IMG/VR virus record: IMGVR_UViG_3300034375_003059
Coordinates: 1-20,039 of that record
Length of the DNA: 20,039 nucleotides
Source: a virus
Strand: one strand, 5' to 3'
The translations under genes were made by a program, and so were the position numbers. Shown here one piece after another: positions 3,527 to 20,039 of the stretch. How positions within the stretch are numbered: position 1 is the first letter of the stretch; every line of letters begins with the position of its first letter. The notes under the pieces were generated by a model, which searched no databases, was not told where the DNA came from, and worked only from the letters and a program-made list of their open reading frames with translations.

Positions 3527-3612
3527 CGGACTATAGCGTAGGAGAAGTCTTTACGTATATGTTAGTTAAACAGGAAAAGAATGAATGCGATTATAAATAT
3601 CAGAGAGAATGA
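2840..3612 (+). CDS. Tail assembly chaperone, -1 frameshifted (GT-like) fusion
   Basis: The -1 frame after the T9 run is open from 3328 (TAA at 3325) to TGA at 3610-3612, with no ATG until about 3559, so it cannot be made whole without frameshifting. Slipping at T TTT TTT (3337-3343) gives 168 residues of the first frame plus 89 of the second, 257 in all. The added part reads as a good protein: RFKPLFDKEYEAKELKAGYD, then KYGSLLTVYSLAQDKA and YSVGEVFTYMLVKQEKNE. This matches the YG…L…D…V.E.L.YM pattern I associate with the T-like domain in Bacteroidota phages. Its TGA forms an ATGA overlap with the next start at 3609, which supports real use. A sequencing indel in the homopolymer is the alternative. 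Confidence 0.7.
3337..3345 (+). promoter_or_regulatory. -1 frameshift slippery site (T9 run)
   Basis: Nine T in a row, read in the zero frame as TCT TTT TTT TTA. They contain T TTT TTT, a perfect X XXY YYZ heptamer at 3337-3343. Both tRNA-Phe pairings survive a -1 slip. I did not identify a convincing stem-loop or pseudoknot downstream by eye. Confidence 0.65.
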
Positions 3613-4103: not shown

Positions 4104-4557
4104 ACCTTTCTCCCAGACTAAGTTAAGAGTTAAGATAGCCTCTTTCGATATGATAGACGATATTATAGACGATCTAAATAAAGGAGATAAGAACGCCTCC
4201 GGAGATTTAGCTAAATCTTTAAAAGTCGAAGTAGCGGAGGGAGGTTCTTTAATATCGGTAAGGTTTAAAGCTAAGGAGTATTGGAAGTACGTAGACGGAG
4301 GAAGAAGACCAGGTAAACGACCTCCTATAGCTCCTTTAGAAAGGTGGATAGTAAAGAAATTAGGGTTATCCGACGAGGATAGTATTAAGTCTATAGCCTT
4401 CGCTATAGCTAATAAGATTAAGAAGAAAGGTATTAAGCCTACTTATATCTTTAGAGATAACGTAAGAAAGTTTAAAGGAAAATTACGTATATTATTAACG
4501 GACGTTAGTAAAGAGGACGTAACTAAAGAAATTAGAAAAATATTAAATAGAAAATGA
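4087..4557 (+). CDS. HK97 gp10-like neck / head-tail joining protein
   Basis: A 156-residue basic protein. The central pattern EYWKYVDGGRRPGKRPPIAP at about 63-82, followed by LERWIVKKLGL and later AFAIANKIKKKGIKP, is typical of the HK97 gp10-like family of connector/neck proteins. In that family a 'Y…G……PP…' loop precedes a helix, and a 'G..P..f' turn leads to the final helix. These proteins sit at the head-tail interface. A second in-frame ATG at 4096 (MPRPF) would shorten the overlap with the preceding gene from 17 to 8 bases and may be the true start. It overlaps the next start as ATGA. Confidence 0.65.
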   Translation: MYSMPRPFSQTKLRVKIASFDMIDDIIDDLNKGDKNASGDLAKSLKVEVAEGGSLISVRFKAKEYWKYVDGGRRPGKRPPIAPLERWIVKKLGLSDEDSIKSIAFAIANKIKKKGIKPTYIFRDNVRKFKGKLRILLTDVSKEDVTKEIRKILNRK

Positions 4558-4979
4558 GTACGATTTTAACAACGACTTACGGAGCTACCGTAACGATTAA
4601 CGGTAGTACATACGCCGTAGCTAATAACGAGAGTATAACTTTAACGGGAGAAGAAGCGGTAAAGCAGGTAGTTAGCGTACCTACTTCGGAGACTACTATA
4701 GCTAATTTAGGAGCGGTAGGACCAGCATCGTTAACAGACTTAAGCTACTTAGTAGTAATTAATAGAGACGGTACTAACTTCGTAAGGCTAAGGCTATCGG
4801 ATACGGGAGGAGCTACTATGGACGTTAAATTAGAGCCTAATAGAGCTTTTATCTTTAATAGTAGGGAGTTAAGCGTATCGGCTACAGAGGGAGCTTTCGC
4901 GTCTTTCTCTAATATCGATAATATTAAGGCTCAAGCGAATACTGCAGCTTGTGACGTAGAACTTTTATTAGCTTACTAA
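4554..4979 (+). CDS. Small beta-rich virion protein, 141 aa
   Basis: No family recognised with certainty. The product is Thr, Ala, Ser and Asn rich with alternating polarity throughout (TYGATVTINGSTYAV, LVVINRDGTNFVRLRL, GATMDVKLEPNRAFIFNS), consistent with a beta-sandwich. It has no signal peptide or transmembrane segment and few charged residues. Its size and place between a neck protein and large tail proteins suggest a minor structural or tail-associated protein. The motif 'VVINRDGTNFVRLRLSDTGG…DVKLEPNRAFIF' resembles small structural proteins that present a sample-dependent surface, but this is only a reading of the pattern. Start overlaps the previous stop as ATGA. Confidence 0.6.
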   Translation: MSTILTTTYGATVTINGSTYAVANNESITLTGEEAVKQVVSVPTSETTIANLGAVGPASLTDLSYLVVINRDGTNFVRLRLSDTGGATMDVKLEPNRAFIFNSRELSVSATEGAFASFSNIDNIKAQANTAACDVELLLAY

Positions 4980-4981
4980 TT

Positions 4982-6484
4982 ATGGCTTTAACGGTAACAC
5001 AGAGACCGGATAGCTATAGTGCCGCCTATTTACCGGTAGAGTATAAATTAACTTCGGACTTATCTCCTAATAGTATTTCCGGAGAGATCGATAGTAACGG
5101 TACTTTATTTGGTTCGGATAACTCAGGGGAGGATATTTTAGTAGGTACTCAGCCTTTACCTTTAGTAGTAGGCGATTACGTTTACTTAGAGAATGCCGGA
5201 GTCTATAACGGAGTACATAGAGTAAGCGGTATTAATAACGGAGTAGAGGGTATTAGCGTAACTGGTTTCTTTATAGATACTCCAGTAACTACTAATACTA
5301 CCTTACCTGGTATACTTAAGCAAGCGGTAGAGGTTAGTAAGTACTATAATAACTATTCGGCGGTATTAGACGTTTATATTAGCGGTTCTTTCGTAGTAAG
5401 GTTAAGAAAGAGGAGAGATTTTAATAACGAGTTCGTATTCGACTTATCTAGTATTATTCAGGAGTATTTAGGTAGCGACTTATTAGCTTTAGGAACTTCG
5501 ACTACTTTAACGGCTACGGACTTAGCTAAGAGCGTTTATATTCAGTACGCGGAGGAGTACGACGTAATAACCGACGGTATAGCGGATTTAACTTTAGGTT
5601 CTTTTACGGACGATAGCGTTAATACTTTTACGGCGGTTAATAGTACTATCCCTTACGTATTTATGAAAGACTTCTCTATATCTTCTACTAACTATAACTT
5701 ATCCGATTACTGGGAGAATAACATTACAGGTTCTAACACTTACGAGTTATTAACGGCTCAACCTAACGTAAGGATAAAAGCGGAGGATAGTTATCAGGTT
5801 AGCTTTATTAACGGAGCTACTCAATCGGGAGGTGTTCCTTGGGGTCCAGGTTCTATAGATTTAGACTTAATAGTAACGAGTTACGACTCTTCTAATAACG
5901 TTTTAGGTAGTAGTACGGTTAACGTTACGAGCGGTCAGGGAGATACGCTTATTAACGTTTATAACGTACCGGTAGGACCAAGTAACTTAGGAGCTAATAT
6001 ATCTACGGGAGCGGTTAAGTACGAAATCTATTTTAGATTAGCTGGTACTAAGATTACTAATACTAAGACTTTCTTAATCGTAGACGACTGTGAACGTATA
6101 GAGAGGCGTTTCGAGTGGGTTAATAAGTTAGGAGGCTTAGACTCTTTTACTTTTAAGGGTAAAGAGACTCGAGATATAGACGTAGAAAAAGAGACTTTTA
6201 AGAGGGTTATTAACTATCCGAGAACTTTACCGGAGAGATCGGTAACGACTTTCGGTGTAACTACTAAAGATATTTACACGGTTAATAGCGGTATCGTAGA
6301 TAAGGAGGAGAAAGAATGGCTAATCGACTTAGTAGAGTCTCCGGAGGTTTACTTAGTGGTTGACGGTTATAGATTACCGGTTCAGGTTAATACTACTTTC
6401 GGTATCGAGCAGTTAGCGGAGTATAGTTATAACGTGACTTTAGAATACGAATTAGCTTACGAAAAGATAATACAGAGAAATTAA
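4982..6484 (+). CDS. Putative distal tail / baseplate protein, 500 aa
   Basis: A long, beta-rich, Ser/Thr/Asn/Tyr-rich protein without membrane segments. Recognisable parts are a strand-rich N-terminal domain (about 1-110), a segment with SFVVRLRKRRDFNNEFVFDL at about 134-153 leading to a short helix (IIQEYLG), an Asn/Ser-rich middle domain with many loops, and a C-terminal domain starting FEWVNKLGGLDSFTFKGKE near residue 375. The 'NKLGGLDSFTF' phrase is one I associate with tail proteins of Bacteroidota phages. Its place before another large tail protein and the tape measure fits a baseplate or tail-tip role. It overlaps the next start by one base (TAATG). Confidence 0.5.
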   Translation: MALTVTQRPDSYSAAYLPVEYKLTSDLSPNSISGEIDSNGTLFGSDNSGEDILVGTQPLPLVVGDYVYLENAGVYNGVHRVSGINNGVEGISVTGFFIDTPVTTNTTLPGILKQAVEVSKYYNNYSAVLDVYISGSFVVRLRKRRDFNNEFVFDLSSIIQEYLGSDLLALGTSTTLTATDLAKSVYIQYAEEYDVITDGIADLTLGSFTDDSVNTFTAVNSTIPYVFMKDFSISSTNYNLSDYWENNITGSNTYELLTAQPNVRIKAEDSYQVSFINGATQSGGVPWGPGSIDLDLIVTSYDSSNNVLGSSTVNVTSGQGDTLINVYNVPVGPSNLGANISTGAVKYEIYFRLAGTKITNTKTFLIVDDCERIERRFEWVNKLGGLDSFTFKGKETRDIDVEKETFKRVINYPRTLPERSVTTFGVTTKDIYTVNSGIVDKEEKEWLIDLVESPEVYLVVDGYRLPVQVNTTFGIEQLAEYSYNVTLEYELAYEKIIQRN

Positions 6485-8496
6485 TGGCTACACCTTTAAA
6501 TATTTACGAATTAGATAAGTTTAATCCTTACGAGTTCTTTATTCCTTTAACGTTTAGTATTAATGACTTTAGAGATATATCGACTCGTAACGGAACTTTC
6601 TCTAAGACGGTTAAAATACCAGGAACTAAGAAGAACGATTCTTTATTAGGTCATAGCTTCGATATTACGGCAGAGGGTTTCTTCGATAGGAATAAGAGAG
6701 TACCGGCGGTAATAGAAAAGGACGGAATAACTTACTTAGACGGCTCTATGCAGTTAAAAAGCGTAGATATAAGCGACGATAAGAATTGGGTTTATAATAT
6801 TATCCTTTACTCCGACCTATCCGACTGGGGAGCTTTAATTAAGAATAAGAATATACGAGACTTAGACTATGATACTATTACCTATAATCCTACTAACGTT
6901 GAGGCTTCTTGGTCTTATAATGGCAGGGATAATGGTTATACTTTTCCTCTTATTAACTACGGTTATTTCGACGGAGATACTGAATCTACTAATCAACAGG
7001 TAGAGGAGTTCTTACCTTCGGTTTTCGTTTACGACGTATTTAGAAAGATATTTAAGGATATAGGTTATAATCTTAAACCAGGATTTTTTAACCGTCAGGA
7101 GTTTAGAGACTTAATTATGCCGGCTATTAAGACCGACTTATCTACTTCTACGGATACTTTAAACGAGAATAGGTTAGAGGTTAAGAGTTTCTACGGTTTA
7201 TACTTTCCTCAGAGGGTAGAGAGTCAGGATATATTCTTGTCTTTTAACGACGTAGATTACGACGGAGGGTCTAACTATAGCTCCGCTACTATCCCTTATA
7301 TCGCTCCTTTTTTAGGAGGTAGTTATAGTGGTACGGCTTCGGTATCTATTAAGAACGCTCAGATAATTAGTAATAATATCGATATAATTATAGAGGAATA
7401 TACTCCGGCGTTAGTATTCGTTAAGAACTTAGCTTTCGAAACTATCGACCTACCTTCTAACTCTAACTCCGCTACTATCGATTTATCTTTTACCGATATA
7501 TCTATAGACCAGGGTAATTATATTAGAGTTAAGATGCATTCCGATAATCCTAACCCTAAAATAGACGTTATAGCTAATAGCCTTAACGTTACTCCTGTAT
7601 CCGCTCCTTTATCGAACGGAGAGGAGATTAGTATTAAAGACTTCGTTTACGATATGGCTCAGAGTACTTTCGTTAAATACTTCGTACAGTTATTTAACTT
7701 AGTTCACGTTACGGACGATAAAGCTAAGACGGTAGAGTTCTTTCATAGAGACGACTTTTATAAACCTATCGAGGAAGCGGAAGACTGGACCGAAAAGAGA
7801 GACGTTTCGAGGAGGCAGACTATCGAGCAGTTAGACGATAAATTAAATAGAGAGTTAGTTTTCGAGTACGAAGAAGATGATAACGACCAACTATTAAAGA
7901 ACTTCGAAGATATATGGAATACTAACCTAACCGACGATAGTAGAGAGTTAGATAACGAATTTTTAAAAGATGAGAAAAAGGTCGCGAATATTCGTTTCTC
8001 TGGAAGTGTGGGAAGCGGTCGTATTACCCAGACAGCAGGTGGAAGTTTATATATGCCTCAATTAATAACTAACTTTAAAACTACAGGTAGCGAGGTTGAA
8101 TTAAATCCGAGACTATTAATATACGAAGGTTTAAAGAGTGGTAATTTTACTTTCGAAGGTTCTTTAAAGTCAGAGTATCCGGCGAGTTACTTCGTTAAGA
8201 AAACCTCTGGACCGTTCGACGTTTCTTTAAGCTTTAAGAACTTAAACGAGGTAGATAAGTCTATACAGATTAACGACGTAGGATTAGTCGATAGGTTTTA
8301 TAAGGAACAGATAAGACAGTTTAATAACGCTCGTTTATACACGGTTTATCTTAAATTAACTGCCGTAGATATAGTTAATTTAAACTTTAGAACTCCTAAA
8401 TTAATTAACGGAGTTTATTACTATCTTAATAAGGTAGAAGATTATAAAGCCGGAGTTAACGAACCGGTTAAATGTGAATTAATACAAATAGTATAA
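6484..8496 (+). CDS. Putative tail / baseplate protein, 670 aa
   Basis: The N-terminal 60 residues (LDKFNPYEFFIPLTFSINDF, then DISTRNGTFSKTVKIPGTKK) look like the conserved opening of a large tail protein of Bacteroidota phages that I cannot name precisely. The remainder is beta-rich with a Trp-containing region near 130-145, an acidic segment around 455-490, and a C-terminal domain ending in PKLINGVYYYLNKVEDYKAG. Size and context suggest a baseplate hub or tail-tip component. A short segment at about 7980-8060 (residues 500-525, with SGSVGSGRITQTAGG) has ordinary TG/CA density unlike the rest of the gene, suggesting a recombined patch. It overlaps the tape measure start as TAATG. Confidence 0.5.
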   Translation: MATPLNIYELDKFNPYEFFIPLTFSINDFRDISTRNGTFSKTVKIPGTKKNDSLLGHSFDITAEGFFDRNKRVPAVIEKDGITYLDGSMQLKSVDISDDKNWVYNIILYSDLSDWGALIKNKNIRDLDYDTITYNPTNVEASWSYNGRDNGYTFPLINYGYFDGDTESTNQQVEEFLPSVFVYDVFRKIFKDIGYNLKPGFFNRQEFRDLIMPAIKTDLSTSTDTLNENRLEVKSFYGLYFPQRVESQDIFLSFNDVDYDGGSNYSSATIPYIAPFLGGSYSGTASVSIKNAQIISNNIDIIIEEYTPALVFVKNLAFETIDLPSNSNSATIDLSFTDISIDQGNYIRVKMHSDNPNPKIDVIANSLNVTPVSAPLSNGEEISIKDFVYDMAQSTFVKYFVQLFNLVHVTDDKAKTVEFFHRDDFYKPIEEAEDWTEKRDVSRRQTIEQLDDKLNRELVFEYEEDDNDQLLKNFEDIWNTNLTDDSRELDNEFLKDEKKVANIRFSGSVGSGRITQTAGGSLYMPQLITNFKTTGSEVELNPRLLIYEGLKSGNFTFEGSLKSEYPASYFVKKTSGPFDVSLSFKNLNEVDKSIQINDVGLVDRFYKEQIRQFNNARLYTVYLKLTAVDIVNLNFRTPKLINGVYYYLNKVEDYKAGVNEPVKCELIQIV

Positions 8497-11390
8497 TGGC
8501 TAAAGAAGAAATATTTTTTGGTATTAATATAGATACCGGAAAGGTTATTAAGGATTTCGGAACACTTAAAAAGCGTACGAAAGAGCTTAAAAAGGAGTTA
8601 GACGGTACTAAGGTAGGTACTAAAAGGTTTAAAGAGCTTAAAGAAGAGATTACTAAAAACCAGGGTACTATTAGGAGGTTTAACCGTCAGTTAAGAGAGA
8701 CTAAGTCTTTAGCTACTAGAGTCGCTCAGGGAACTACTAGAGCTTTCGCTAGGGTAGGAGCTTCTATCGCAGGAGCTTTCGCCGTAGGAGGAGTATTTCA
8801 GGTCTTTAGAGACGGAGTAGGGGTTATGGTAGACTTCGAACAAGCCGTGGCGGACGTAGGAGCTGTATCCGGTGCTACTGACGAACAGTTAAAAAAGTTA
8901 GAGGCTTCGGCTAGAGACGTAGCTAAGGTATCGGTATTTACGGCTACAGAGGTCGCTGGTTTACAGTTAGAGTTAGCTAAGTTAGGTTTTACGGCGGACG
9001 AGATCGTATCTTCTACGGGAGGAATCGTTAACTTATCTACCGCTTTTAGATACGACGTTAGTCAGACGGCAGAAACGGCTGCAGCTACTCTTAGAGCTTT
9101 CGGACTAGAAGCCGAAGAGATGACTAGAGTAACCGACGTAATGGCGGACTCTTTCGCTAGTTCTGGACTAGACCTTACTAAGTTCCAGGAGTCTATGAAG
9201 TTAGTGGCTCCTACGGCAAAGTCTACCGGAAGAACCTTAGAAGAGACTACCGCTTTACTATCTACTTTAGCGGATAACGGTATATCTGGGTCTATCGCCG
9301 GTACTCAGCTTAGAAGGGTATTTATCGAGCTTAATAAAGACGGAAAGACTTTAGACGAGGCTATGGAATTAGTTTCTAACTCTACCGATAAGTTAGGAAC
9401 GGCTACGGAATTAGTAGGAGTTAGAGGAGCTACGGCGTTACAGATATTCGCGGACCAATCGGAGAGGTTAAAAGAATTAAGAAAGGACTACGAAGATACG
9501 GCTGGAACGGCAGAGGAATTAGCAGAAAAGTCGGGAGATACTCTACAAGGAGCTTTTAAACGTTTAAGGTCGGCTTACGACGAGTTAATTTTAAAGTTTT
9601 CGGAGTCTAGAGGACCAATTAGAGACGTAGTAGAAAGGATTACGGACTTTATTAACTCTATCGACGAAGAGGACGTTAAACGCTTTACTTCGGCGGTTAA
9701 GAACTTATTTAAGGTAGTATTAACGGGAGTTAAGGTATGGATTTCTTATAAGACTGCGGTAATAGCATCTAACGTTGCTACGGCTGCATTTACAAGGACT
9801 CAGGTATTAGCAAGGATTGCCGCTATAGCTTTCTCCGGAGGACTAACCGGAGTAACTCGAGCTATGAAGCTATTAAACCTTACTATTAAAGCTAATCCTA
9901 TCGGGTTATTAGTCGGAGGAATTACTACTTTAATTAGTGTTCTGACCCTATGGGGGAACGAAGAAGAGGAGGTAGAGAAGAGAGTTAAGAAGACTAATAA
10001 GGCTTTAGTAGAAAGAAAGACTATCGTAGACGAGTTAACTAATCAGACTCCGGAGCTTAGAAAAGCTTTAGAGGAATTAGAAGAAGAGTTAGACTTATTA
10101 TCGGACCCTACGGAGGAACAGACTAAGAGATTAAGGGAGTTAAGGGCGGCAGCTGTGGACGCTTTCTTAAACTCCGCTGAGGCTTATAAGAGAGGAATAG
10201 GTAGTTTAGACTTATTCTCTTTACAGGAGGACGCTAGAGACTTAACTAATAAAATAGAGGATTTAGAGGACCAAGTATCTTTCTTCGACGCTGGAGAAGA
10301 GAAGGATAACGCTATAGGTTTTTTAAATACTTTAAAAGCACTACTTAGAGAGGTTAATAACGAAATATCTAGTAGAACCGGAGATAAAGACTCTTTAGGA
10401 CTTATAGAAGACTTAGAAGCTAAGTTAAAGAGATTAGGAGAGGAACTTAAAAAAGCTAAGACCGTCGAAGAGATTCGTTCGGTAGGTAACGAGATTAAAG
10501 CCGTTAATAAAGAGTTGGCTTTCTATAAAGAGTTAGCTAAAGGTATTAGCGATGCGGAAGGATTTAACGAAGACGATGACCCTTTCTTTAATACTTTCGA
10601 CGAAGACCTAGATATAGAGCAAGACCCTGATATAGAGTTTGCTCGTTTAAAAAGAATGGAGCTATTAAAAATAGCCGGAGAGACTACCGACGCTTTAGCT
10701 AAAGAAGAGGAGAAGAGAACGGAAAACGAGAGAATACAAGCGGAGTTAAGAAGGGATATTACTAATACTTTAATATCTACAGCGGGTAACTACGTAGACG
10801 CAACGATTGCCTTTCTACAGAGAGACGAAAGTGCTAGAAAAGCTAACGCCGAAAAGATTAAAGCTTGGGCGAAGGCTAAGGTATTAGTAGACCTTGCGGC
10901 TCAGGTTCAGAGTATCGCTACTACTAACTCCTCTCCTACTCAGCCGGGTAACTTATTCGGATTCGGTATCCCAGGTCAGATAGCTACGGCGGTACAAGTA
11001 GGTGCAGCTACGGCTAACGCGATCGCTCAACTAGCAACGATTCAGAGTCAGAAATTCGCTAAAGGAGGTATATTAAGCGGTCCAAGTCACGCTTCGGGAG
11101 GTATTAAGACTCCATTCGGAGAGTTAGAAGGAGGAGAAGCGGTTATTAATAAGAAGTCTACTAAGATGTTTTCCGGAGTACTTTCCTCTATTAACGAAGC
11201 CGGAGGCGGTAAAAAGTTCGCTAGAGGTGGTATTTTACCTACTCCTAATACTATTTCTACGCCTAATAACCTTAACTTAGAGGTAATTAACGCTATTAAA
11301 GATATAGATATTAAGCCTACGGTATCGGTAGTAGAAATTAACGACGCTCAGGCGAGAATATCGGAGATAGAAAACAATTCAACTTTATAA
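8496..11390 (+). CDS. Tail tape measure protein
   Basis: A 964-residue protein that sets tail length. An N-terminal coiled coil (about 20-75) is followed by an Ala/Gly-rich hydrophobic stretch (about 84-105). Next comes a segment with the hallmarks of the phage minor tail / tape measure domain (TIGR01760-like): FEQAVADVGAVSGATDEQL at 114-132, FTATEVAGLQLELAKLGF at about 148-165, then ISGSIAGTQLRRVFIEL at 263-279. Further hydrophobic segments occur near 405-430 and 470-488, then long charged coiled coils (500-800). A Gly-rich end (FAKGGILSGPSHASGG, GEAVINKK) is typical of tape measures. At about 1.5 Å per residue the full length would imply a tail near 145 nm, if most of the protein is extended; that is inference. 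Confidence 0.9.
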   Translation: MAKEEIFFGINIDTGKVIKDFGTLKKRTKELKKELDGTKVGTKRFKELKEEITKNQGTIRRFNRQLRETKSLATRVAQGTTRAFARVGASIAGAFAVGGVFQVFRDGVGVMVDFEQAVADVGAVSGATDEQLKKLEASARDVAKVSVFTATEVAGLQLELAKLGFTADEIVSSTGGIVNLSTAFRYDVSQTAETAAATLRAFGLEAEEMTRVTDVMADSFASSGLDLTKFQESMKLVAPTAKSTGRTLEETTALLSTLADNGISGSIAGTQLRRVFIELNKDGKTLDEAMELVSNSTDKLGTATELVGVRGATALQIFADQSERLKELRKDYEDTAGTAEELAEKSGDTLQGAFKRLRSAYDELILKFSESRGPIRDVVERITDFINSIDEEDVKRFTSAVKNLFKVVLTGVKVWISYKTAVIASNVATAAFTRTQVLARIAAIAFSGGLTGVTRAMKLLNLTIKANPIGLLVGGITTLISVLTLWGNEEEEVEKRVKKTNKALVERKTIVDELTNQTPELRKALEELEEELDLLSDPTEEQTKRLRELRAAAVDAFLNSAEAYKRGIGSLDLFSLQEDARDLTNKIEDLEDQVSFFDAGEEKDNAIGFLNTLKALLREVNNEISSRTGDKDSLGLIEDLEAKLKRLGEELKKAKTVEEIRSVGNEIKAVNKELAFYKELAKGISDAEGFNEDDDPFFNTFDEDLDIEQDPDIEFARLKRMELLKIAGETTDALAKEEEKRTENERIQAELRRDITNTLISTAGNYVDATIAFLQRDESARKANAEKIKAWAKAKVLVDLAAQVQSIATTNSSPTQPGNLFGFGIPGQIATAVQVGAATANAIAQLATIQSQKFAKGGILSGPSHASGGIKTPFGELEGGEAVINKKSTKMFSGVLSSINEAGGGKKFARGGILPTPNTISTPNNLNLEVINAIKDIDIKPTVSVVEINDAQARISEIENNSTL

Positions 11391-11400
11391 ACGGAAAAAG

Positions 11401-11640
11401 ATGAGCCAGAGAGAACAATTAAGCGATTTATTAAGTATAGACTTAGAGGTAATTAATAAGCTCTTTAACGAGGGTTTATTAGACCCTCGAGGTCTTAGAG
11501 TATTCTTAATAAAAGCAGAGTTTAAAGCTATGAAAGAAGCTAATCCCGACTTAACGGACTATAAGATTACTAAGGAGCTAGGTTATAAGCACGACCTTAG
11601 TAAGTCTACGGTCTATAAATGGGTTACTAATTACGGCTAG
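11401..11640 (+). CDS. Small helix-turn-helix protein, 79 aa
   Basis: The whole protein is helical. Its C-terminal third reads as a helix-turn-helix: TDYKITKELGYKHDLSKSTV as helix, turn and recognition helix, followed by YKWVTNYG. This resembles the DNA-binding part of small terminase subunits or a transcription regulator, but it is too short for a complete small terminase of usual size, and no large terminase follows. It lies 10 bases after the tape measure and is closed by a hairpin at 11640-11660, so it seems to belong to the tail transcript. It may regulate late genes or bind packaging DNA. The stop is TAG. Confidence 0.6.
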   Translation: MSQREQLSDLLSIDLEVINKLFNEGLLDPRGLRVFLIKAEFKAMKEANPDLTDYKITKELGYKHDLSKSTVYKWVTNYG

Positions 11641-11668
11641 TCTTTATTTTACGTAAAGACTTTTATTT
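11640..11668 (+). terminator. Hairpin terminator between tail and head blocks
   Basis: GTCTTTA at 11640-11646 pairs with TAAAGAC at 11654-11660 around a 7-base loop and is followed by TTTTATTT. It begins on the last base of the preceding stop codon. Seven pairs, mostly A-T, make it weaker than the others, so it may only attenuate read-through. Confidence 0.6.
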
Positions 11669-11693
11669 AAAAAAGTTAATAATATTATAGAGT

Positions 11694-12797
11694 ATGTGGT
11701 ATAAAGCACAAAAAGTAAATAATCAAGTAGAAGTAGATTTATTCGACGAGATCGGAGGCTGGGGTATCTACGCTAAAGAGCTAAAAGACGAACTATCTTC
11801 GATGATTGGGAACCCTACCGAGGAGGTAGTAGTTAATATTAACTCGCCAGGTGGTTCGGTATTCGAGGGAATCGAAATCTATAACTACTTAAAAGGATTA
11901 CCTAATAAAGTAACGGTTAAGATTAATAGTTTAGCCGCATCTATTGCTACGGTAATCGCATTAGGAGCTGACGAGTTAGAAATTAGCGAATCTGCTTTCT
12001 TTATGATACATAATCCTTGGACTATGGCAGGAGGAGAAGCGGAAGACCTAAGAAAACAAGCGGACGTATTAGATAAGATTAAGGAAACTATTTTAAGTAT
12101 CTACGAGAAGAACTCTAATCTATCGAGAGAACGTCTAACCGCTTTAATGGACGAAGAGACTTGGTTAACGGGTTCGGAGGCTTTAGAGTACGGTTTTGCT
12201 ACTCGTTTAACGGAAGGTTTAAGCGTTGCGGCGTTAGCTACTACGGATTTAGTAAATAATTTTAAGAATATACCAAACGGTTTAAAGATGGCAGAAAATT
12301 TAGTAGAAGCAGTTGAAGAACTAGCTGAAAACTTAGAAGCTACTATCGAAACTACTAACGAAGTAGAAGAAACTGTAGAAGAAACTACCGAAGAAGTAGT
12401 AGAATCTACGGAGGAAGTTACTAACGAGGTAGAGGAGGTAGAAGAAGTACAAGAAGAAGGTATCTTAGCAAAAGTTAAGGCTTTCTTATCTAACAAGTTA
12501 GAGAACGCGTCTAACGAACTTAACGAGCGTTATTTAGAGGTATCTAACGAGTTAAAAGCAAGTAAAGAGGCTAACGAGGATTTAGCTTCGGAGAACGAAG
12601 AGTTAAAAGCTACTTTAGAGGAGACTTTCGAAATGTTAAAGAAATCTCAAGAGCTTAACGAATCTTTTAAGAACGAAGTAAAGGACTTAAACGATAAGTT
12701 AAAGGAAGAAGTAGGAGAGGACTTAAATCCGGTAGTAGAGCCTGAGGTTAAGGCTAAGACGGATATTAAAGAAGTATTTAGAAATTTAAAAAAATAA
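11694..12797 (+). CDS. ClpP-like head maturation protease fused to scaffold
   Basis: Residues 1-180 form a ClpP/S14-type serine protease domain: VNINSPGGSVFEG at 48-60 (the oxyanion strand-turn), the catalytic Ser83 in SLAASIA, His106 in MIHNPW, and Asp153 in MDEETWLTGSEALEYGFA. This family trims the capsid precursor and scaffold inside the prohead. After residue 190 follow a very acidic, Thr/Glu/Val-rich linker (about 200-258) and a charged coiled coil (about 260-345) typical of a scaffolding domain, so one polypeptide likely does both jobs. The major capsid protein follows after 6 bases, matching the standard protease-scaffold-capsid order. The long open frame on the opposite strand at 12101-12496 only mirrors the acidic repeats and is not a gene. 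Confidence 0.85.
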   Translation: MWYKAQKVNNQVEVDLFDEIGGWGIYAKELKDELSSMIGNPTEEVVVNINSPGGSVFEGIEIYNYLKGLPNKVTVKINSLAASIATVIALGADELEISESAFFMIHNPWTMAGGEAEDLRKQADVLDKIKETILSIYEKNSNLSRERLTALMDEETWLTGSEALEYGFATRLTEGLSVAALATTDLVNNFKNIPNGLKMAENLVEAVEELAENLEATIETTNEVEETVEETTEEVVESTEEVTNEVEEVEEVQEEGILAKVKAFLSNKLENASNELNERYLEVSNELKASKEANEDLASENEELKATLEETFEMLKKSQELNESFKNEVKDLNDKLKEEVGEDLNPVVEPEVKAKTDIKEVFRNLKK

Positions 12798-12803
12798 TAA
12801 GAA

Positions 12804-13754
12804 ATGGCATTTGATTTAACGGCGTTATCTGATTATACTACAGAACACGCAGGAACATTTTTCGCAAAGTCAGTAATGAAGTCTAAGTTAGCTTCATTAG
12901 CAACGGTTTATACTGGGTTTAAACCAGGTACTCATAAGTTACCGGACGTAGAGCACGACTACGATCTTTTACAGAACGGAGAGGCTTGCGGGTTTAACGC
13001 TTCAGGTGATTTAAATATCGAGCAGAGACAGATTATCGTAGAATCTTTAAAAATTAACACTCAGTACTGTGTTAGAGATTTAGAGAAGAAATTTACTCGT
13101 CAGATTATGCCGGCTGGGCAAGATTACGAGGGGTTAGCTCCTTTAGAGGCTGAGTTAATGGCTTCTTTAGATAGAGCTATCGGTAAGATGATGGAGTTAG
13201 TATTAGTTAAAGGTAACAAGGCTACTGCTCCTAACGCATTAGGTTCTTTAGACCACTTAAACGGTTTAAATAAAGTTATCGCAGACGAGATTTCTGGAGG
13301 AGGTATCCCTGCAGCTCAAGCTTTAACTTTAGGAGCTTTAACAGAGTCTAATATCGTAGGATTCGTAGAAGACTTATACGACGCTCTTCCGGTAGACGCT
13401 TACTCTACTATTCAGGACGAGAGATGGTACGTTCTAATGGGAGACGATAAGGCTAAAATGTACGAGAGAGGTTACAGAGATAACTTAGGTACAGTAGTTT
13501 ATAACCAAGGATTCGAGAAGAGATTCGTAGACGGTACTAATATCGCTATCGAAGGAATCCCAGGATTAAACGGAACTGATTACTTAGTACTTATTAAGGA
13601 GTCTGACTTAGTTCTAGCGGTAGACGTAGAAGGAGAAGAAATGAACTTAAAAATGGGTATGGACCAATACGAGGAAAATATCTGGATTAAAGGTAGATTC
13701 GGAGCAGGATTCCAAATTCATTTCCCTTCACAAGTAGTAGTAGCTAACTACTAA
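12804..13754 (+). CDS. Major capsid protein
   Basis: A 316-residue protein immediately after the protease-scaffold gene. The pattern LPDVEHDYDLLQNGEACGFN at about 46-65, then GDLNIEQRQIIVESLKIN and CVRDLEKKFTRQ, resembles major capsid proteins of Bacteroidota phages, where a 'C.w...G......R...V..ik......C...L...w' pattern recurs. The C-terminal half is beta-rich with GYRDNLGTVVYN and GIPGLNGTDYLVLIKESDL. It forms the icosahedral shell, with the HK97 fold expected from context. Its codons break the TG/CA rule more often than those of its neighbours, especially in the first 130 bases, as if translation efficiency overrode it. A hairpin with a UUCG loop follows. Confidence 0.75.
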   Translation: MAFDLTALSDYTTEHAGTFFAKSVMKSKLASLATVYTGFKPGTHKLPDVEHDYDLLQNGEACGFNASGDLNIEQRQIIVESLKINTQYCVRDLEKKFTRQIMPAGQDYEGLAPLEAELMASLDRAIGKMMELVLVKGNKATAPNALGSLDHLNGLNKVIADEISGGGIPAAQALTLGALTESNIVGFVEDLYDALPVDAYSTIQDERWYVLMGDDKAKMYERGYRDNLGTVVYNQGFEKRFVDGTNIAIEGIPGLNGTDYLVLIKESDLVLAVDVEGEEMNLKMGMDQYEENIWIKGRFGAGFQIHFPSQVVVANY

Positions 13755-13771
13755 TAAAAAGATTTATTAAC

Positions 13772-13793
13772 GGGGGTCTTCGGACTCCCTTTT
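13772..13793 (+). terminator. UUCG-loop hairpin after the capsid gene
   Basis: GGGGGTC at 13772-13778 pairs with GACTCCC at 13783-13789 with one G-T wobble. A TTCG tetraloop is closed by C-G, the classic extra-stable loop, and TTTT follows. It probably ends or attenuates transcription after the capsid gene, or protects the 3' end of its mRNA. The next start is only 14 bases further. Confidence 0.75.
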
Positions 13794-13806
13794 AAAAGAT
13801 ATTAAA

Positions 13807-14358
13807 ATGGCAGAATGTTTAATTACAGCGGGTTGGGTAGGACCATCTTGCGACGAGACTTTTAACGTACCAGGAATCGAAAAAGATAAGATTTACGTAG
13901 GTAATAAGTCAGAAATTACTGCTTTTACTTCGACTATCGACGGAGAGATCGACGGGTTAACTTTCGAAACTTATAAAGGGTTATACGCTTTAACGGTTCA
14001 TAAGGACACTGCATCTTGGACGGAGGAGTTACAAGTAGGAGCAAACTCGGGATATTATTATAACGAGTCTTTAACTTTTAGAACTATCGATTCTTCTACG
14101 GCGGTTAGAAACGCTATCGAGGATATGGTAGGTACTTCTTTAGTATTCGTAGTTAAGGATAAGAATGGAAAATGGACTGTAATCGGAGAGACTGACGGAG
14201 TAGAGCTTTCAGAGCAGACTAAAGGTTCCGGAGCGGCACCAGGAGATGATACGGGAGACGTTTTAACTTTCTCGGGAGTAAATAGAGGTAAGGCTAAAAA
14301 GTTTTTTAAGACTGACGCAACTACAACTGACTCTACGTTAGCTGGTTACTTACTTTAA
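13807..14358 (+). CDS. Probable major tail (tube) protein
   Basis: A 183-residue beta-rich protein. The segment YYYNESLTFRTIDSSTAVRN at about 79-98 leads to VFVVKDKNGKWTVIGETDGV near 116-135 and then a GDVLTFSGVNRGKAKKFF ending. This order (beta pair, short helix of 'ST..RNAI..M', 'VFVV.D..G.W.V.G...G.', 'LTF.G') is what I expect of tail tube proteins in Bacteroidota siphoviruses, though it is a judgement by eye. It is compatible with high expression: it follows the capsid gene and a stable hairpin. A head decoration or other virion protein is the main alternative. The gene ends in TAA before a repeat-rich control region. Confidence 0.5.
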   Translation: MAECLITAGWVGPSCDETFNVPGIEKDKIYVGNKSEITAFTSTIDGEIDGLTFETYKGLYALTVHKDTASWTEELQVGANSGYYYNESLTFRTIDSSTAVRNAIEDMVGTSLVFVVKDKNGKWTVIGETDGVELSEQTKGSGAAPGDDTGDVLTFSGVNRGKAKKFFKTDATTTDSTLAGYLL

Positions 14359-14533
14359 TAGTTTCTAAGCTTTATTAAAGGGTTAGTTAAGGGTTCGGAA
14401 CGGTTCGAAAGGATTACGGAACGGTTCGCAAATTTAATTTAATATAATTTAATTTAAGCTTAATAGAATATAATTTAATAGAAGAGGAGGTTTTTAAAGC
14501 CTCCTTTTTTTATCTTTAAGAAAATAATTTATT
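14359..14533 (+). promoter_or_regulatory. Second repeat-rich control region
   Basis: This gap shares short elements with 1741-2217, 12.5 kb away: GTTCGAAAGGATTA exactly at 14403-14416 and 1885-1898, TTAATATAATTTAAT exactly at 14439-14453 and 1973-1987, and TTACGGAACGGTTCG at 14414-14428, close to 1929-1942. CGGAACGGTTCG also occurs twice here (14396-14407 and 14417-14428), and TATAATTTAAT again at 14469-14479. TATAAT at 14443-14448 could be a -10 box. A terminator follows the repeats, so a promoter here would be attenuated, or the elements act on RNA or as protein sites. Confidence 0.5.
14486..14511 (+). terminator. Intrinsic terminator before the glycan cassette
   Basis: GGAGG at 14486-14490 pairs with CCTCC at 14500-14504. 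Extra A-T and G-T pairs extend the stem to about eight, leaving a 3-base loop, and seven T follow. It ends about 22 bases before the next start, so the genes after it depend on read-through or on initiation close by. Confidence 0.75.
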
Positions 14534-14773
14534 ATGGAAGAAAACTTTAAACGTAAAAAGAGGACTTATAAGAAGACTTCTAAAGAAAACGAGGTAGAAC
14601 TACCTAAAAACGAAAAAAAGGTCTTAGAACCGAAGAAATGGGTATTTAAGAACGTAAATAGAAAGATTATTTTAGGTAATTCGGTTATTAGTAACTACGA
14701 CTTAGAAAATAATCAGAGGTTAGCAGAGATTTTAATCGAGAAAGGGTTAGGAGATTTAATATGCTTCGAGTAA
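14534..14773 (+). CDS. Small basic hypothetical protein, 79 aa
   Basis: Residues 1-35 are very rich in Lys, Glu and Thr (RKKRTYKKTSKENEV) and probably disordered. Residues 36-79 form a compact part with WVFKNVNRKIILGNSVISN and a helix LENNQRLAEILIEKGLGDLI. A charged disordered tail before a small folded domain is typical of minor phage structural proteins, such as head-closure or internal proteins, but no family is certain. It overlaps the next start by 13 bases, so it is coupled to the glycan-related genes despite having no visible enzymatic motif. Confidence 0.65.
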   Translation: MEENFKRKKRTYKKTSKENEVELPKNEKKVLEPKKWVFKNVNRKIILGNSVISNYDLENNQRLAEILIEKGLGDLICFE

Positions 14774-15438
14774 GACAGATTTACTATAAGGATACTCAAA
14801 AGGTTATTAATATGGGGCGAACCTCTGACTTCGTTCCGTATTATAACCCTATATCCGATGAAAACTTAGAAAGCGGAGTTATTAGACGGTTATTCGAGTT
14901 AGAGGATTATAAGGACTCGGAATATTACGGAGTAGTTAGTCATAAGTTTTATAATAAGTTAAAAAAGGATTCTAATTATATTAAAGAAACTATCTTAAAC
15001 GACGAGGAAAAAGCCGACGTTTATAGCTTCTTCGGTAAATTAGAAAAGGTTAACTTAGTTACTCAGGGCGTTAACTGGCATCCTCTATTTTTAGATATTT
15101 ATAAGCTTATCTCCGATCGTTTAGACTGGGGTATAGACTTAGAGGATAAGTCTTTATTATTCGAGCCTATTTACTCTAACCACTGGATATCGAGTAAGGA
15201 AACTTTTAAGGAGTTCGCTTTAGACTTTCTTATACCGGTAACCGATTTAATGAACTCTTCTAAAGTACTTAGAGACCTATGTAATCAGGACGCTAACTAT
15301 ATCTCTCGAGAGAAAATATCTCCGGAGCTATGCTTAGAAGTATTCGGTAGACCTTATTATACTTACCACTGTTTTATTTTAGAAAGGTTGTTCCCGATTT
15401 TCTGCTATTTACGGGACAAAAAAGTTAAACATATATGA
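14761..15438 (+). CDS. Glycan-cluster-associated protein, 225 aa
   Basis: Not an enzyme I can name. The pattern YYGVVSHKFYNKLKK at about 55-69, then EKADVYSFFGK, then NWHPLF near 112-117, resembles a family of uncharacterised proteins often found beside glycosyltransferases in surface polysaccharide clusters ('YYG..S.KF..K…DVY…HP'); this is recollection, not a search. There is no signal peptide or membrane segment, and the last part (YYTYHCFILERLFPIFCYLR) is aromatic-rich. It is coupled to both neighbours by overlaps, the downstream one being ATGA with a glycosyltransferase. A role in glycan transfer or sugar recognition is inferred from context alone. Confidence 0.55.
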   Translation: MLRVRQIYYKDTQKVINMGRTSDFVPYYNPISDENLESGVIRRLFELEDYKDSEYYGVVSHKFYNKLKKDSNYIKETILNDEEKADVYSFFGKLEKVNLVTQGVNWHPLFLDIYKLISDRLDWGIDLEDKSLLFEPIYSNHWISSKETFKEFALDFLIPVTDLMNSSKVLRDLCNQDANYISREKISPELCLEVFGRPYYTYHCFILERLFPIFCYLRDKKVKHI

Positions 15439-16133
15439 AGTTTTTAGTATTAGTACCGATATACCGACGTCACGCTGTTTTAAGGCTATTTAACGAAGGT
15501 TTAGAGAGTTTAAAAGGTAAAGGATATAATATCGAAGTTTTAGCCGTAGGAGACGTAAACGACGAGCCTATAGCTAAAGAATTAAATTATAGATACGTTA
15601 TTCATAGGAATATCTTAGGAGAAAAGTTAAATAAAGCTCTTAAAGTAGCTAAGAATATCGATTTCGACGCTATTTTAATGCTCGGTTCTGACGATATATT
15701 AAACTCCGCTACTTTAGATTTTTATATAGATGCTTTTAATCACGATTATAAGTTTGTAGGGTTCTTAGACTGTTACTTCTACGACTTAGAGAAACGTAAT
15801 ATGATTAAATGGAACGGATATAGAGGAGAAAGAGCCGGAGAACCTATAGGAGCTTGGAGATGCTTTAAAAGAGAGCTTATAGAGGAGCTTAACTGGGAGC
15901 TTTGGGGTAATCAGCATCATTCTATCGATTATACGATGTGGGAGAAGATTAAGAAAAGGGAGGATATTTTAAAAGCTAAACTTTTCGAAGATATGTTTAT
16001 CGGAGACTTAAAAACTTCGGAAAACGTAACTAAATTTCGTAAATTCGATAACTCGGTAATAGTAAACCCTTTAGACGGGTTAAACTTATTAGAAACGGAC
16101 TTTAAAAATAAAATATTAAACTATGGAAAATAA
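15435..16133 (+). CDS. GT2-like glycosyltransferase, 232 aa
   Basis: A GT-A fold glycosyltransferase, short for the family. The N-terminal strand and loop FLVLVPIYRRH at 3-13 is followed by a helix and a VEVL-like second strand. The metal- and nucleotide-sugar-binding region is AILMLGSDDIL at 79-89, with SDD in the place of the DxD motif. The later GEPIGAWRCFKREL at about 134-150 fits the acceptor side. There is no membrane segment, so it acts in the cytoplasm on a sugar-nucleotide donor. The acceptor is unknown and could be a virion protein, lipopolysaccharide or a nucleotide. It overlaps the acyltransferase gene by 11 bases. Confidence 0.7.
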   Translation: MKFLVLVPIYRRHAVLRLFNEGLESLKGKGYNIEVLAVGDVNDEPIAKELNYRYVIHRNILGEKLNKALKVAKNIDFDAILMLGSDDILNSATLDFYIDAFNHDYKFVGFLDCYFYDLEKRNMIKWNGYRGERAGEPIGAWRCFKRELIEELNWELWGNQHHSIDYTMWEKIKKREDILKAKLFEDMFIGDLKTSENVTKFRKFDNSVIVNPLDGLNLLETDFKNKILNYGK

Positions 16134-16674
16134 TATCCACCCTACGGCGATCGTAGGAGAAAACGTTAAAATAGGTAAAGGTAATACTATCGGAGCTTAC
16201 TCGGTTATTTACGACGGAGTAGAGATAGGAGATAATAACGAAATAGGTAGTTTTGTAATTATCGGAGGTAGAGGAGAGATTAGAAAGGCTAACGAGTTTA
16301 ACGGCAAGATAGTAATAGGTAACGATAACTTAATTAATCATCACGTAACTATAGATAAGTCTATAGAGGGTTATACTTTATTAGGGTCTAATAATTTTAT
16401 AATGACTAAGGCTCATTTAGGACACGACGTAGCTATAGGTAATAACGTTACTATATCTTCCGGAGCTAATATAGGAGGACACGTAGTAATACACGACCAC
16501 GCTAACGTAGGATTAAACGCCGAAGTACATCAGAGGAAAATTATAGGTAGAGGAGCTATGGTAGGTATGGGAGCCTCTATTACTAAAGATGTTAAAGGAT
16601 TCGAAAAAGTAGTAGGAGTTAATAGAGTTATAGGAGAAAACGAGCGTAAACTAAAGGAGCTAGGGATAGAATGA
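16123..16674 (+). CDS. LpxA-like hexapeptide acyltransferase, 183 aa
   Basis: Left-handed beta-helix protein with repeated [IV]G hexads from residue 5 (IHPTAIVGENVKIGKGNTIG) to about 155. It keeps residues of the LpxA active site: AHLGHD with His98 and His101 (E. coli LpxA His122 and His125), GGHV with His120 (His144) and AEVHQ with His136 (His160). LpxA uses acyl carrier protein to acylate UDP-GlcNAc at the first step of lipid A synthesis. At 183 residues this one lacks most of the C-terminal helical domain (E. coli LpxA has 262), so its substrate may differ; sugar N- or O-acyltransferases share the fold. It is coupled to glycosyltransferase-like genes on both sides. Confidence 0.8.
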   Translation: MENNIHPTAIVGENVKIGKGNTIGAYSVIYDGVEIGDNNEIGSFVIIGGRGEIRKANEFNGKIVIGNDNLINHHVTIDKSIEGYTLLGSNNFIMTKAHLGHDVAIGNNVTISSGANIGGHVVIHDHANVGLNAEVHQRKIIGRGAMVGMGASITKDVKGFEKVVGVNRVIGENERKLKELGIE

Positions 16675-17423
16675 GATTAGCCGTATGTTATACCGTATTT
16701 AATGGAGTAGAACTATTAGAACACGCTATTAACTCGGTTAAAGACCACGTAGACGAGATTATAATAGCTTACCAGGTTACCAGTAATTACGGTAACGAGT
16801 GTAAAGACGTTTTAGAGTTTATAGAACGATTTCCGGACTATACTTACTTAAACTACGAACCTGACTTGACGGTAGACGCTAAGACTAACGAAAAGAGAAA
16901 ACATCAGAAGTTAATAGAGTTCGCTCGTATTTGTGACTGTACTCACTTCTTTCTATCGGCTACGGACCACTTTTACAAGGAGGACGAGATATTATATGCT
17001 AAGAACTTAGTAGATACTACGGGAGTAAAGACGACTTACTCTAAAATGATAACCTACTTTAAAGAGCCTACTTTAAGGTTAGAGCCTTTAGAGACTTATT
17101 ATATGCCGTTTATCTGTTCTACTTCCGTTAATATCGGTTCTTTAGCTCCGGTATTAGTAGACCCTGCTTGCGCTTTTAAACCCTTTTCTCCTTATTACGT
17201 TTTTAGAGAAGACGAGGTATTAATGCACCACTTCTCCTGGGTTAGAAAGGATATAGATAGTAAGTTAGATAACGCTGCGGCTAAGGTAAATTGGTTAGAT
17301 AAGATAGACGAATTTAAGGATAGGTATAATAACTTTAAATTAGGGGATAAATTCCCGTACTATCCTAATCACGAGATAGTAGAGACGGAGGACGTTTTTA
17401 ACTTACGTAAAATTAATTTTTAG
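16671..17423 (+). CDS. Glycosyltransferase-like protein with degenerate DxD, 250 aa
   Basis: The N-terminal part (RLAVCYTVFNGVELLEHAIN, then VDEIIIAYQ at 28-35) is a GT-A fold opening. The segment RKHQKLIEFARICDCTHFFL at 76-95 is followed by SATDHFY (96-102), where related proteins have a DADEFY-type metal site; only the second Asp (Asp99) seems kept. MHHFSWVRKDIDSKL at about 185-199 matches the family's later motif. It may be an active transferase with an altered metal site or a pseudoenzyme. Context: last of the glycan genes, coupled by ATGA to the acyltransferase and followed 24 bases later by the portal gene. Confidence 0.6.
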   Translation: MRLAVCYTVFNGVELLEHAINSVKDHVDEIIIAYQVTSNYGNECKDVLEFIERFPDYTYLNYEPDLTVDAKTNEKRKHQKLIEFARICDCTHFFLSATDHFYKEDEILYAKNLVDTTGVKTTYSKMITYFKEPTLRLEPLETYYMPFICSTSVNIGSLAPVLVDPACAFKPFSPYYVFREDEVLMHHFSWVRKDIDSKLDNAAAKVNWLDKIDEFKDRYNNFKLGDKFPYYPNHEIVETEDVFNLRKINF

Positions 17424-17447
17424 ATAAAAAACTTATTTTAAATAGAT

Positions 17448-18719
17448 ATGGAAGAAAACTTAGAAAAAAGTAACGTTTTTTTTGTTAATCTAACGACTAA
17501 ATCTGTTACTCCGGACGTAGACGTAAGGAGGAATAGAAAGAAAGATTATATTTACTTCGGTAAGGATAATTTATTCCCTAACTATCTAATAGATTTAGCG
17601 GATAATTGCTCTATTCATAGAGCGTTATTAGAGACTAAGTCTAAATTTATCGCCGGAGAGGGGTTCTCTTTCGAAGGAGAGGATAGTCAGGTAGCTTTAG
17701 CGGAAAGATTCTTAGAAGGGTTAGATAAAGACTTTTTAAGAAAGACTTCCGTAGATATGGCTTACTTTAACGGTTTTTACTGGCAGTCTAAGTTCGAAAG
17801 ATCGGGTAACGTAGCTTATTTACGTAACGTAGACTTCTCTTATATCCGTTCGGGTAAAATGAACGAAAATGGAGAAGTAGAAAAATACTACTATACACCA
17901 GATTGGAAGTTTGCTACTAAGCGTAACTCTTTTAAACCTGAGGACGCTATTTACGAACCTAAGCCTATCGCTTCTTGGTATTCTTCCGATAGAGCTTTAG
18001 TAAGAGAGAGAGGAGAACTTATTAACGGTATGAGTTACTCTCCAGGAAAGTTATTTTACGCGGAGCCTAATTACTTAGGAGCGTTAAACTATATCGAGAT
18101 TAGTAATCAGATAGCAGAGTTTCATAAGAATAACTTAGATAACGGTATGGTAGGGTCTATGCATATTCATTTATTCGAAGACCTTAGCGACGGAGAAAAG
18201 CGTAGAAAAGTAGAGAAGTCTATTAATAATAAGTTTAGCGGTTCGGAGAACGCCGGTAAGGTAGTAGTAACTTGGTCTACTAATCCGGATATGAAGACCT
18301 TAGTAGAATCTATACCGGTTAACGATTCTCACGAAATGTTTACCCTACTTAACGGTAAAGTATCGGAGGAGATCGTAATGGCTCATAGAACGCCTATGGC
18401 TTTAGCCGGAATTAAGGTAGCTACCGGACTACAGTCGGAGGATAGTTTAACGCGTTCTAATATGGAGTATTATCAGAATACGGTAATTAGACCTCAGCAG
18501 ACGGTTATAGAGGACTCTTTAGATAAAGTCTTAGAGCGTAACGGTATTAACGTTAAAACTAAAATTAAGCCTCTTAAACCTATCGATATATTAGCTTCGG
18601 AGGAGCTTATGTTACGTACTATGTCCTTAGAAGAGATTAGAAGAGACGTATTAGGTAAAGACGAATTAGAGGGTACTCCGGTATTAAGCGAGAGTAATAA
18701 CGATAATATAGTAGACTAA
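17448..18719 (+). CDS. Portal protein
   Basis: A 423-residue protein matching Bacteroidota-phage portals. The N-terminal part DYIYFGKDNLFPNYLIDLAD at about 33-52 is followed by a helix with HRALLETKSKFIAGEGFSFE. The wing and stem have WQSKFERSGNVAYLRNVDF and EFHKNNLDNGMVG. The C-terminal part has HRTPMALAGIKVATGLQSED and then a long helix MEYYQNTVIRPQQTVIEDSL. Portals form the dodecameric DNA gate at one capsid vertex and dock the terminase and neck. Here the gene lies after the glycan cassette and before the tail fibre, not next to a terminase, which is unusual. A short segment near 17860-17925 contains several avoidable TG/CA. Confidence 0.7.
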   Translation: MEENLEKSNVFFVNLTTKSVTPDVDVRRNRKKDYIYFGKDNLFPNYLIDLADNCSIHRALLETKSKFIAGEGFSFEGEDSQVALAERFLEGLDKDFLRKTSVDMAYFNGFYWQSKFERSGNVAYLRNVDFSYIRSGKMNENGEVEKYYYTPDWKFATKRNSFKPEDAIYEPKPIASWYSSDRALVRERGELINGMSYSPGKLFYAEPNYLGALNYIEISNQIAEFHKNNLDNGMVGSMHIHLFEDLSDGEKRRKVEKSINNKFSGSENAGKVVVTWSTNPDMKTLVESIPVNDSHEMFTLLNGKVSEEIVMAHRTPMALAGIKVATGLQSEDSLTRSNMEYYQNTVIRPQQTVIEDSLDKVLERNGINVKTKIKPLKPIDILASEELMLRTMSLEEIRRDVLGKDELEGTPVLSESNNDNIVD

Positions 18720-20039
18720 TGGCTTTAGATTTAGGAATATTTTTAGAAGGAGCGCAGAGTACTTTTAAGGTAAAAGTTTCTGATAACGACGCTCAAGCTC
18801 AGTACTTAATAGATAAGCTTATTAGCTCTGACGGTTCGGTAACTATTACCGAGACTAACGACGGAGGGATAGAGACTATAGACTTAACTACTTCGGGAGG
18901 TGGGGGTAGTGATACCAATATAGCTAATACAGACTTAACTAATGACGCTAATCATTCAGTTAACTTAAACACGTTCAAACAAGGTTTTACTAACGGAGAG
19001 CTCGGTATTGGTACTGCAACGCCCGATAATTCATCACAACTTGAAGTTTCTGCAACAGATAAAGGCTTATTAATTCCAAGAGTTACTACGGCTCAAATGA
19101 ATGCGATTAGTACGCCAGCTACTAATTTACTTGTGTTTAATACCGATTTAGAAGCTTTATACAGATACGATGGTGCGAATTGGGTTGCTTTATCTGCTGG
19201 TTATGGTGTTATTGAGGTTATTACTGACGCTGATTCGGGTATACCTACCTATTTTACTGATTTACAAAGTGCCTTAGAAACGTGTAAGACAAGTGGAAGT
19301 AATAACGTAGTTAGGTTATGTTCTGACATCACTATTACAAGTGCTATTTCAATTAAAAGTACTGGTTCAGGTACTGGGTTAGGCTATGATTTTGAAAGTT
19401 TAACTATTGACTTCAACGGTTTTAGAGTGGTTAATAATGAAGCTGACGGAAGTTACTGTTTTGATGTTTTTATAGATGGCTCAACAGCTTCAAATCGCCA
19501 ATTATCATTTGTTAATGGTCAAGTAATAAGAACGAGCGGAACTACTGCTAGTAGGTCTATATTGTGCGATTCTGCTGGTCATTACGGTGGTGTATCAATG
19601 AACAAAATGATATGGTACAATGACGGAGGTGTTTGTGCTGATTTCAGAATGGGTAGTGTTGCTAATTATATGACAAGCATTAATGATTGGGGAGGTAGTG
19701 TTTTTCAATCTGACACTAGCTTCGCTATTGATATTCTAGGGATTAATAGTACTTATCCATTCAAAGTTAGGAACTTTACAGCGATAGGTAATAGTGCAAA
19801 TATAGCATTGTATTCTAGGGGTAACGTTGAAGCTAGTCATTTTACCGCTTACAATTTATCAACTGGTGATTCTATTTATGTAAAAAGCACCTCAAATTTA
19901 AGTCATTTTTCAGCTTATTCAACATCGGGTAATGCTATTGAGTTTGCTGATGATTTTGATGGTGTGTTATCTAATTTTTACGCACAATCAACAACTGGAG
20001 ATTGTATATATATGGTTAACAGCTCTAATACATCGTACA
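18719..20039 (+). CDS. Tail fibre / receptor-binding protein, 5' part
   Basis: The frame is open from ATG at 18719 (TAATG overlap with the portal stop) to the window edge. Residues 1-60 are an N-terminal domain, probably the virion anchor. A glycine-rich linker (SGGGGSD, about 59-65) follows, then NTDLTNDANHSVNLN and a fibre module with LGIGTATPD…KGLLIPRVTTAQ…YDGANWVAL, common in Bacteroidota fibres. After about residue 165 the protein has repeated short strands (LTIDFNGFRVV, MSKN-free; many Asn, Ser, Thr, Gly) that fit a right-handed beta-helix, the usual receptor-binding or polysaccharide-depolymerase fold. The TG/CA depletion ends near the linker, so the C-terminal part appears to have been gained from a source of ordinary composition. 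Confidence 0.75.
   Translation, partial: MALDLGIFLEGAQSTFKVKVSDNDAQAQYLIDKLISSDGSVTITETNDGGIETIDLTTSGGGGSDTNIANTDLTNDANHSVNLNTFKQGFTNGELGIGTATPDNSSQLEVSATDKGLLIPRVTTAQMNAISTPATNLLVFNTDLEALYRYDGANWVALSAGYGVIEVITDADSGIPTYFTDLQSALETCKTSGSNNVVRLCSDITITSAISIKSTGSGTGLGYDFESLTIDFNGFRVVNNEADGSYCFDVFIDGSTASNRQLSFVNGQVIRTSGTTASRSILCDSAGHYGGVSMNKMIWYNDGGVCADFRMGSVANYMTSINDWGGSVFQSDTSFAIDILGINSTYPFKVRNFTAIGNSANIALYSRGNVEASHFTAYNLSTGDSIYVKSTSNLSHFSAYSTSGNAIEFADDFDGVLSNFYAQSTTGDCIYMVNSSNTSY

Follow-up and report, generated by a model that had tools for sequence, protein, structure and literature searches.

The tail fibre gene of the window (the whole stretch of DNA analysed, 20,039 nucleotides, a 20-kb piece of a marine phage) passes from TG/CA-depleted to ordinary composition within the codons of a short glycine linker, and relatives of the phage carry different outer parts behind a common anchor. 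The explanation, which is highly probable when taken as a whole, is that the gene would be a mosaic, in which a virion anchor of about 60 residues has been vertically inherited and a presumably receptor-binding part, joined at the linker, has been recently acquired by recombination from a donor that was itself probably a phage of ordinary composition. Across the clade a weak, strand-symmetric fixation bias at the dinucleotide level would, over a prolonged period, have stripped TG and CA from the whole genome, favouring the fixation of changes that destroy TG/CA and disfavouring that of changes that create it.

A near-complete 36-kb contig of the same phage (G001, also L002) is identical to the window across 1127–20039 and holds the full-length fibre, of 625 amino acids (L002, 11272–13149). 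Relatives were gathered via the portal gene, giving 33 related loci, and the portal of the window also finds a counterpart in the one annotated in Nonlabens phage P12024S (tblastn, E 1e-25). Gene calls are mechanical. The depleted stretch contains the structural block (tape measure, head maturation protease, putative major capsid and portal) together with a few other genes, the major capsid being assigned by position alone.

Features of the window, with positions, strand and the basis on which each is distinguished
Feature	Position	Strand	Basis
Second patch of ordinary composition	1..1472		Change point; DNA match to outgroup G004
TG/CA-depleted stretch, density 0.033	1473..18900		Change-point fit, dinucleotide ratios, PHROGs/Pfam
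Portal protein gene, TG/CA-depleted, used to find relatives	17448..18719	+	Phage_portal E 1.4e-8, under the Pfam score cut-off
Conserved tail fibre anchor, 59 codons, TG/CA-depleted	18719..18895	+	TG/CA count below expected; conserved in relatives
GGGGSD linker, at which composition changes and the recombination junction lies	18896..18913	+	Change point 18901; step in DNA identity to G002, 85% to 97%
Post-linker domain, ordinary TG/CA	18914..19206	+	Shared with G002, 97% DNA identity over 18905–19140
Predicted beta-helix tip (start), ordinary TG/CA, no DNA-level relation to G002	19207..20039	+	Beta-helix model, weak tailspike matches

Change-point analysis of TG+CA density places two breaks in the window, at about 1472 (2-lnL interval 1268–1550) and at 18900 (2-lnL interval 18881–18952), the density being 0.125 over 1–1472, 0.033 over 1473–18900 and 0.128 thereafter. 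A fit restricted to the fibre gene puts its break at 18901 (interval 18882–19015), inside the GGGGSD codons (amino acids 60–65 of the fibre), with a gain of 9.06 lnL units, reached by 0 of 1000 codon shuffles of the gene. Under synonymous resampling, in which the protein is held fixed and codons are redrawn from the usage of outgroup relatives, anchor codons 1–59 hold 6 TG/CA against 19.2 ± 2.7 expected (z −4.8), the post-linker domain 35 against 37.5 (0.93 of expectation) and the beta-helix 177 against 173.8 (1.02); amino-acid content is not the cause of the step. At NNY codons the T/C counts of the anchor are 0/5 before G and 4/0 before A, those of the C-terminal part 44/25 and 43/20, respectively. 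Outgroup anchors are mildly low too, at 0.58–0.70 of expectation vs 0.89–1.02 for outgroup tips, so part of the contrast between anchor and tip is older than the depletion. The preliminary description of this DNA had noticed a composition switch at the glycine linker and proposed a change-point analysis, which confirms a real and well-placed break; it had missed the ordinary composition of window 1–1472 and the extent of the depletion, which spans the 36-kb genome. Inside the ordinary left patch lies a pyrimidine-dimer glycosylase-like gene (103–465; Pyr_excise E 3e-13), DNA-similar to outgroup G004.

In the predicted fibre model the anchor comprises a helix (residues 27–35) and two strands (39–45 and 51–58), confidence being low before residue 119; strands end at residue 58, resuming as an extended series beyond about residue 165. 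The best PDB matches of the model include tailspikes, at weak E-values, weakly suggesting that the tip may be a tailspike-like beta-helix; a receptor-binding role would be presumed for the C-terminal part. The post-linker domain contains a stretch of 60–70 amino acids with protein relatives in unrelated phages.

The anchor is present in the records of 8 of 9 relatives, with 61–100% amino-acid identity, and at many of the 33 loci a common anchor of about 60 amino acids is followed by divergence into different C-terminal types: TNIAN/beta-helix (window phage, G002 and G006), several SPLxxKGDL types, a DNMANADL type and others. Pairwise DNA alignments between fibres of differing types commonly stop 156–190 nucleotides into the gene, which is at the linker. 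Anchor and post-linker relationships conflict across this junction. The first 156 nucleotides of the G002 anchor are 98% DNA-identical to L009 and G007, which have another tip type, and 90% to the window phage, while past the linker G002 is 97% identical to the window phage (7 differences in 18905–19140), with no similarity left at the DNA level to either L009 or G007. From about 19207 the beta-helices of the window phage and G002 are unrelated at the DNA level, and downstream of the fibre high identity between the two, mostly 94–98%, resumes. Furthermore, over the first 555 nucleotides of their fibre genes G003, which is depleted, and G004, which is not, are 96.6% identical, so exchange crosses the composition boundary. 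The search for a donor phage of the tip found none, returning the phage itself and a 35%-identical relative of ordinary composition; the best protein relatives of the tip are 35–46% identical. These comparisons of sequences strongly support a probable replacement of the outer part of the fibre with retention of the anchor, as the preliminary description had it; relatives with different C-terminal parts after the same linker were looked for and found, and where mixed composition recurs the tips are non-homologous, rather than belonging to one homologous full-length fibre.

An artefact of protein composition, sampling noise or chimeric assembly is vanishingly improbable as the source of the break: no points in its favour were found, synonymous resampling and codon shuffles both speak against it, the frame is open across the junction and, since the same fusion of anchor and tip is present in G002, from another metagenome, as well as in the 36-kb contig, it is not an assembly join. 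A tip exempt from the pressure, for example for protein or expression reasons, instead of newly acquired, would account for the near-ordinary tip in every depleted relative examined. However, this is very unlikely, as the tips of different relatives are different proteins, hence turnover is demonstrated, and in several depleted phages the tip is itself depleted in part, as if ameliorating (L014 0.78, G003 0.72, L010 0.83). Non-fibre cargo is likewise ordinary; depletion at synonymous sites extends to every class of structural gene.

Relative to the value that base composition predicts, TG/CA stands at about 0.3 in the window phage and at 0.37 across all of G001. This ratio is about 0.45 for the sister clade and about 0.8 for outgroups (67–74% portal identity), and reaches 1.0–1.18 for phages further away, among them the cultured Nonlabens phage P12024S; the depletion is restricted to one clade and graded along it. 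It covers the genome except for a few patches, those other than the fibre tip being mostly lineage-specific cargo or genes near-identical to those of G002. In the mosaic genomes of G007 and G009, part of the early region is ordinary. CG is raised (1.45). At twofold codons the T:C counts of the window phage genome are 72:634 before G and 732:26 before A, compared with 55% and 75% T in outgroups, and at fourfold sites four of four routes creating TG/CA are suppressed, by 1.7–2.8 natural-log units. Selection at the RNA level is judged unlikely, as the coding strand is short of both TG and its reverse complement, CA. An expression-linked exemption of the putative capsid gene (0.58) was considered and rejected, its synonymous T/C choice being as skewed as elsewhere; amino-acid content thus explains its weaker depletion. 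A literature search found no precedent for such TG/CA depletion, and this background appears to be undescribed.

Rates of loss and gain were estimated by two-state likelihood on gene trees, with context effects taken from outgroups; the model comparison excludes four gene trees in which depleted and non-depleted phages do not form separate groups. In the sister clade losses run at two to three times neutral and gains at 0.3–0.6 of neutral, outgroups being nearer neutral. Before G, the rates of the depleted clade are 4.91 for T to C (neutral 2.26) and 1.34 for C to T (neutral 2.15), and before A they are 7.26 for C to T and 0.71 for T to C. At fourfold sites gains of T before G are lowered for A to T (0.24, p 6e-7), C to T (0.50, p 0.08) and G to T (0.40, p 0.001), and losses are raised for T to A (1.96-fold, p 0.002) as well as for T to C and T to G (1.54-fold, singly not significant); T to A before G is also up in outgroups (2.2-fold, p 0.07). 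A parsimony count with the window phage as outgroup (gains 200 vs losses 41) was discarded as mis-polarised, the window phage being the most depleted.

A mutational hot spot, from which TG/CA mutates away faster while new TG/CA is gained normally, would fit the roughly two- to three-fold acceleration of losses in the depleted clade, and a loss-only model is far better than one with no effect (lnL −2572.36 vs −2604.84). Such a bias predicts faster loss with unchanged gain, however, and gains are suppressed, to 0.24–0.62 of neutral, with moderate statistical support; all third-position routes to TG/CA share in this and transversions act like transitions. The loss-only model lies 4.7 lnL units under the free one (nominal p ~0.01 for the 2 additional parameters of the latter), whereas the fixation-bias model, only 0.9 units under the free one, is indistinguishable from it. 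With equal parameter numbers fixation bias beats loss-only by 3.8 lnL units for the clade and 3.4 for the window phage branch, a moderate difference of 3–4 units each. The hot spot is accordingly quite unlikely, and the slow mutational process of the preliminary description is among its less supported parts. Suppressed gains and raised losses, transversions included, are expected of weak selection, or of a bias in repair or conversion, and not of a single lesion; the data favour a weak fixation bias, selection-like or by biased repair or conversion, over a pure mutational hot spot. Its scaled strength S is about 1–2 in the sister clade and about 2.5–5.7 on the window phage branch. With so small a strength, and many hundreds of sites left (583 TG/CA in the 17.4 kb of the depleted stretch), present numbers exclude lethal cutting of every site, in line with the earlier argument against an acutely lethal restriction of every TG/CA. 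It is possible rather than probable that an undescribed selection against TG/CA at the level of dsDNA, via host defence or phage DNA modification, would act in this clade of marine Bacteroidota-type phages, strong enough for the near-total dependence of synonymous T/C on the next base, with the swapped tips as a built-in clock.

At its full TG/CA content the tip would have arrived within about 0.014–0.025 substitutions per site, a rough figure for which decay constants and an ongoing bias are assumed, compared with a window phage branch of 0.07–0.3 per gene and about 0.13 as a whole. Under continued pressure, the tip would keep its TG/CA through arrival in about the last 0.02 substitutions per site, in agreement with a post-linker block only 3% diverged from G002; recency by itself is enough to account for the ordinary composition of the tip. 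The alternative, that the pressure was over in the lineage of the window phage, as with a past host, and the tip was acquired afterwards, gains some ground from young sister branches, in which TG/CA gains slightly outnumber losses (184 vs 135), so that the pressure may have eased, and from recently exchanged blocks at least 96% identical to G002, which show no excess TG/CA loss on the window phage side. Gene-wide rates on the window phage branch are nevertheless strongly biased and recency suffices, making an ended pressure somewhat unlikely. The earlier statement that the pressure has had no time to act, or no longer acts, is thus sufficient in its first half; its second, with the past host, is undecided, the two small counts leaning towards it. 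The recent changes of the window phage itself are unreadable, no relative at 80–99% identity having been found; a search with an early gene returned only the same virus, in other samples.

Exchange of fibre tips is a well-known phage habit, and a conserved short anchor, unrelated C-terminal parts, a linker junction and a predicted tailspike-like beta-helix tip are all shared with modular exchange of tail fibres and tailspikes; unlike there, a genome-wide dinucleotide depletion makes the swap stand out as a compositional step and allows a rough age limit. Restriction-site avoidance in phages likewise produces a selection-like scarcity of a short word on both strands, but concerns a specific, usually palindromic word of at least four bases, whereas here a non-palindromic two-base word is reduced about three- to four-fold, and still present, in all 16 NTGN contexts (0.12–0.76), with a weak per-site bias. 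CpG depletion by methylation and deamination is a similar strand-symmetric loss of a dinucleotide over evolutionary time, of the opposite kind, however, since here CG is raised, TG/CA is lost and gains are suppressed. Very-short-patch repair and biased gene conversion can mimic weak selection through a directional fixation bias, yet TG/CA is lost here towards several other dinucleotides, transversions included, and no repair gene of the very-short-patch kind was identified. A graded, clade-wide loss of a non-CpG dinucleotide with such a signature of gain and loss would point to an unrecognised force on phage DNA, for which inserts of ordinary composition such as the fibre tip would serve as time stamps, making its rate and persistence measurable.

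Several further observations concern G001. A TET-associated glycosyltransferase gene (L036:12362–13192, G001 32362–33195; Pfam TAGT E 3e-34, PHROG beta-glucosyl-HMC-alpha-glucosyltransferase E 1e-65) is TG/CA-depleted and has no match in the other relatives compared, which hold in its slot methyltransferase-, helicase- or thymidylate-synthase-like genes, named by reading their sequences. Phages with TET-type cytosine hypermodification combine such a glycosyltransferase with TET and a cytosine methyltransferase; no TET or methyltransferase was matched among the proteins scanned, the genome being not quite complete. Glutamine codons CAA/CAG go from 679/186 in outgroups to 51/123 in G001 core genes (L035, L036), a switch exceeding that of glutamate and lysine codons, although both glutamine codons contain CA. 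Two genes at G001 21403–22631 (L036:1403–2631), of ordinary or intermediate TG/CA amid depleted genes, have homologues only in outgroup G005 among the genomes compared.

A host search with the portal found no related portal among the genome contigs searched, and terminase relatives in Bacteroidota genomes (45–56% identical) all have ordinary TG/CA, at 0.92–1.22. Beside a Flavobacterium rivuli prophage-like terminase (L113), a 1-kb stretch has a TG/CA ratio of 0.39, the locus being ordinary overall. The complete-looking 37.65-kb relative G007 (L045, L046) has a depleted structural half and an ordinary early half, the early genes of which often show 70–87% protein identity to those of the window phage despite their ordinary composition.
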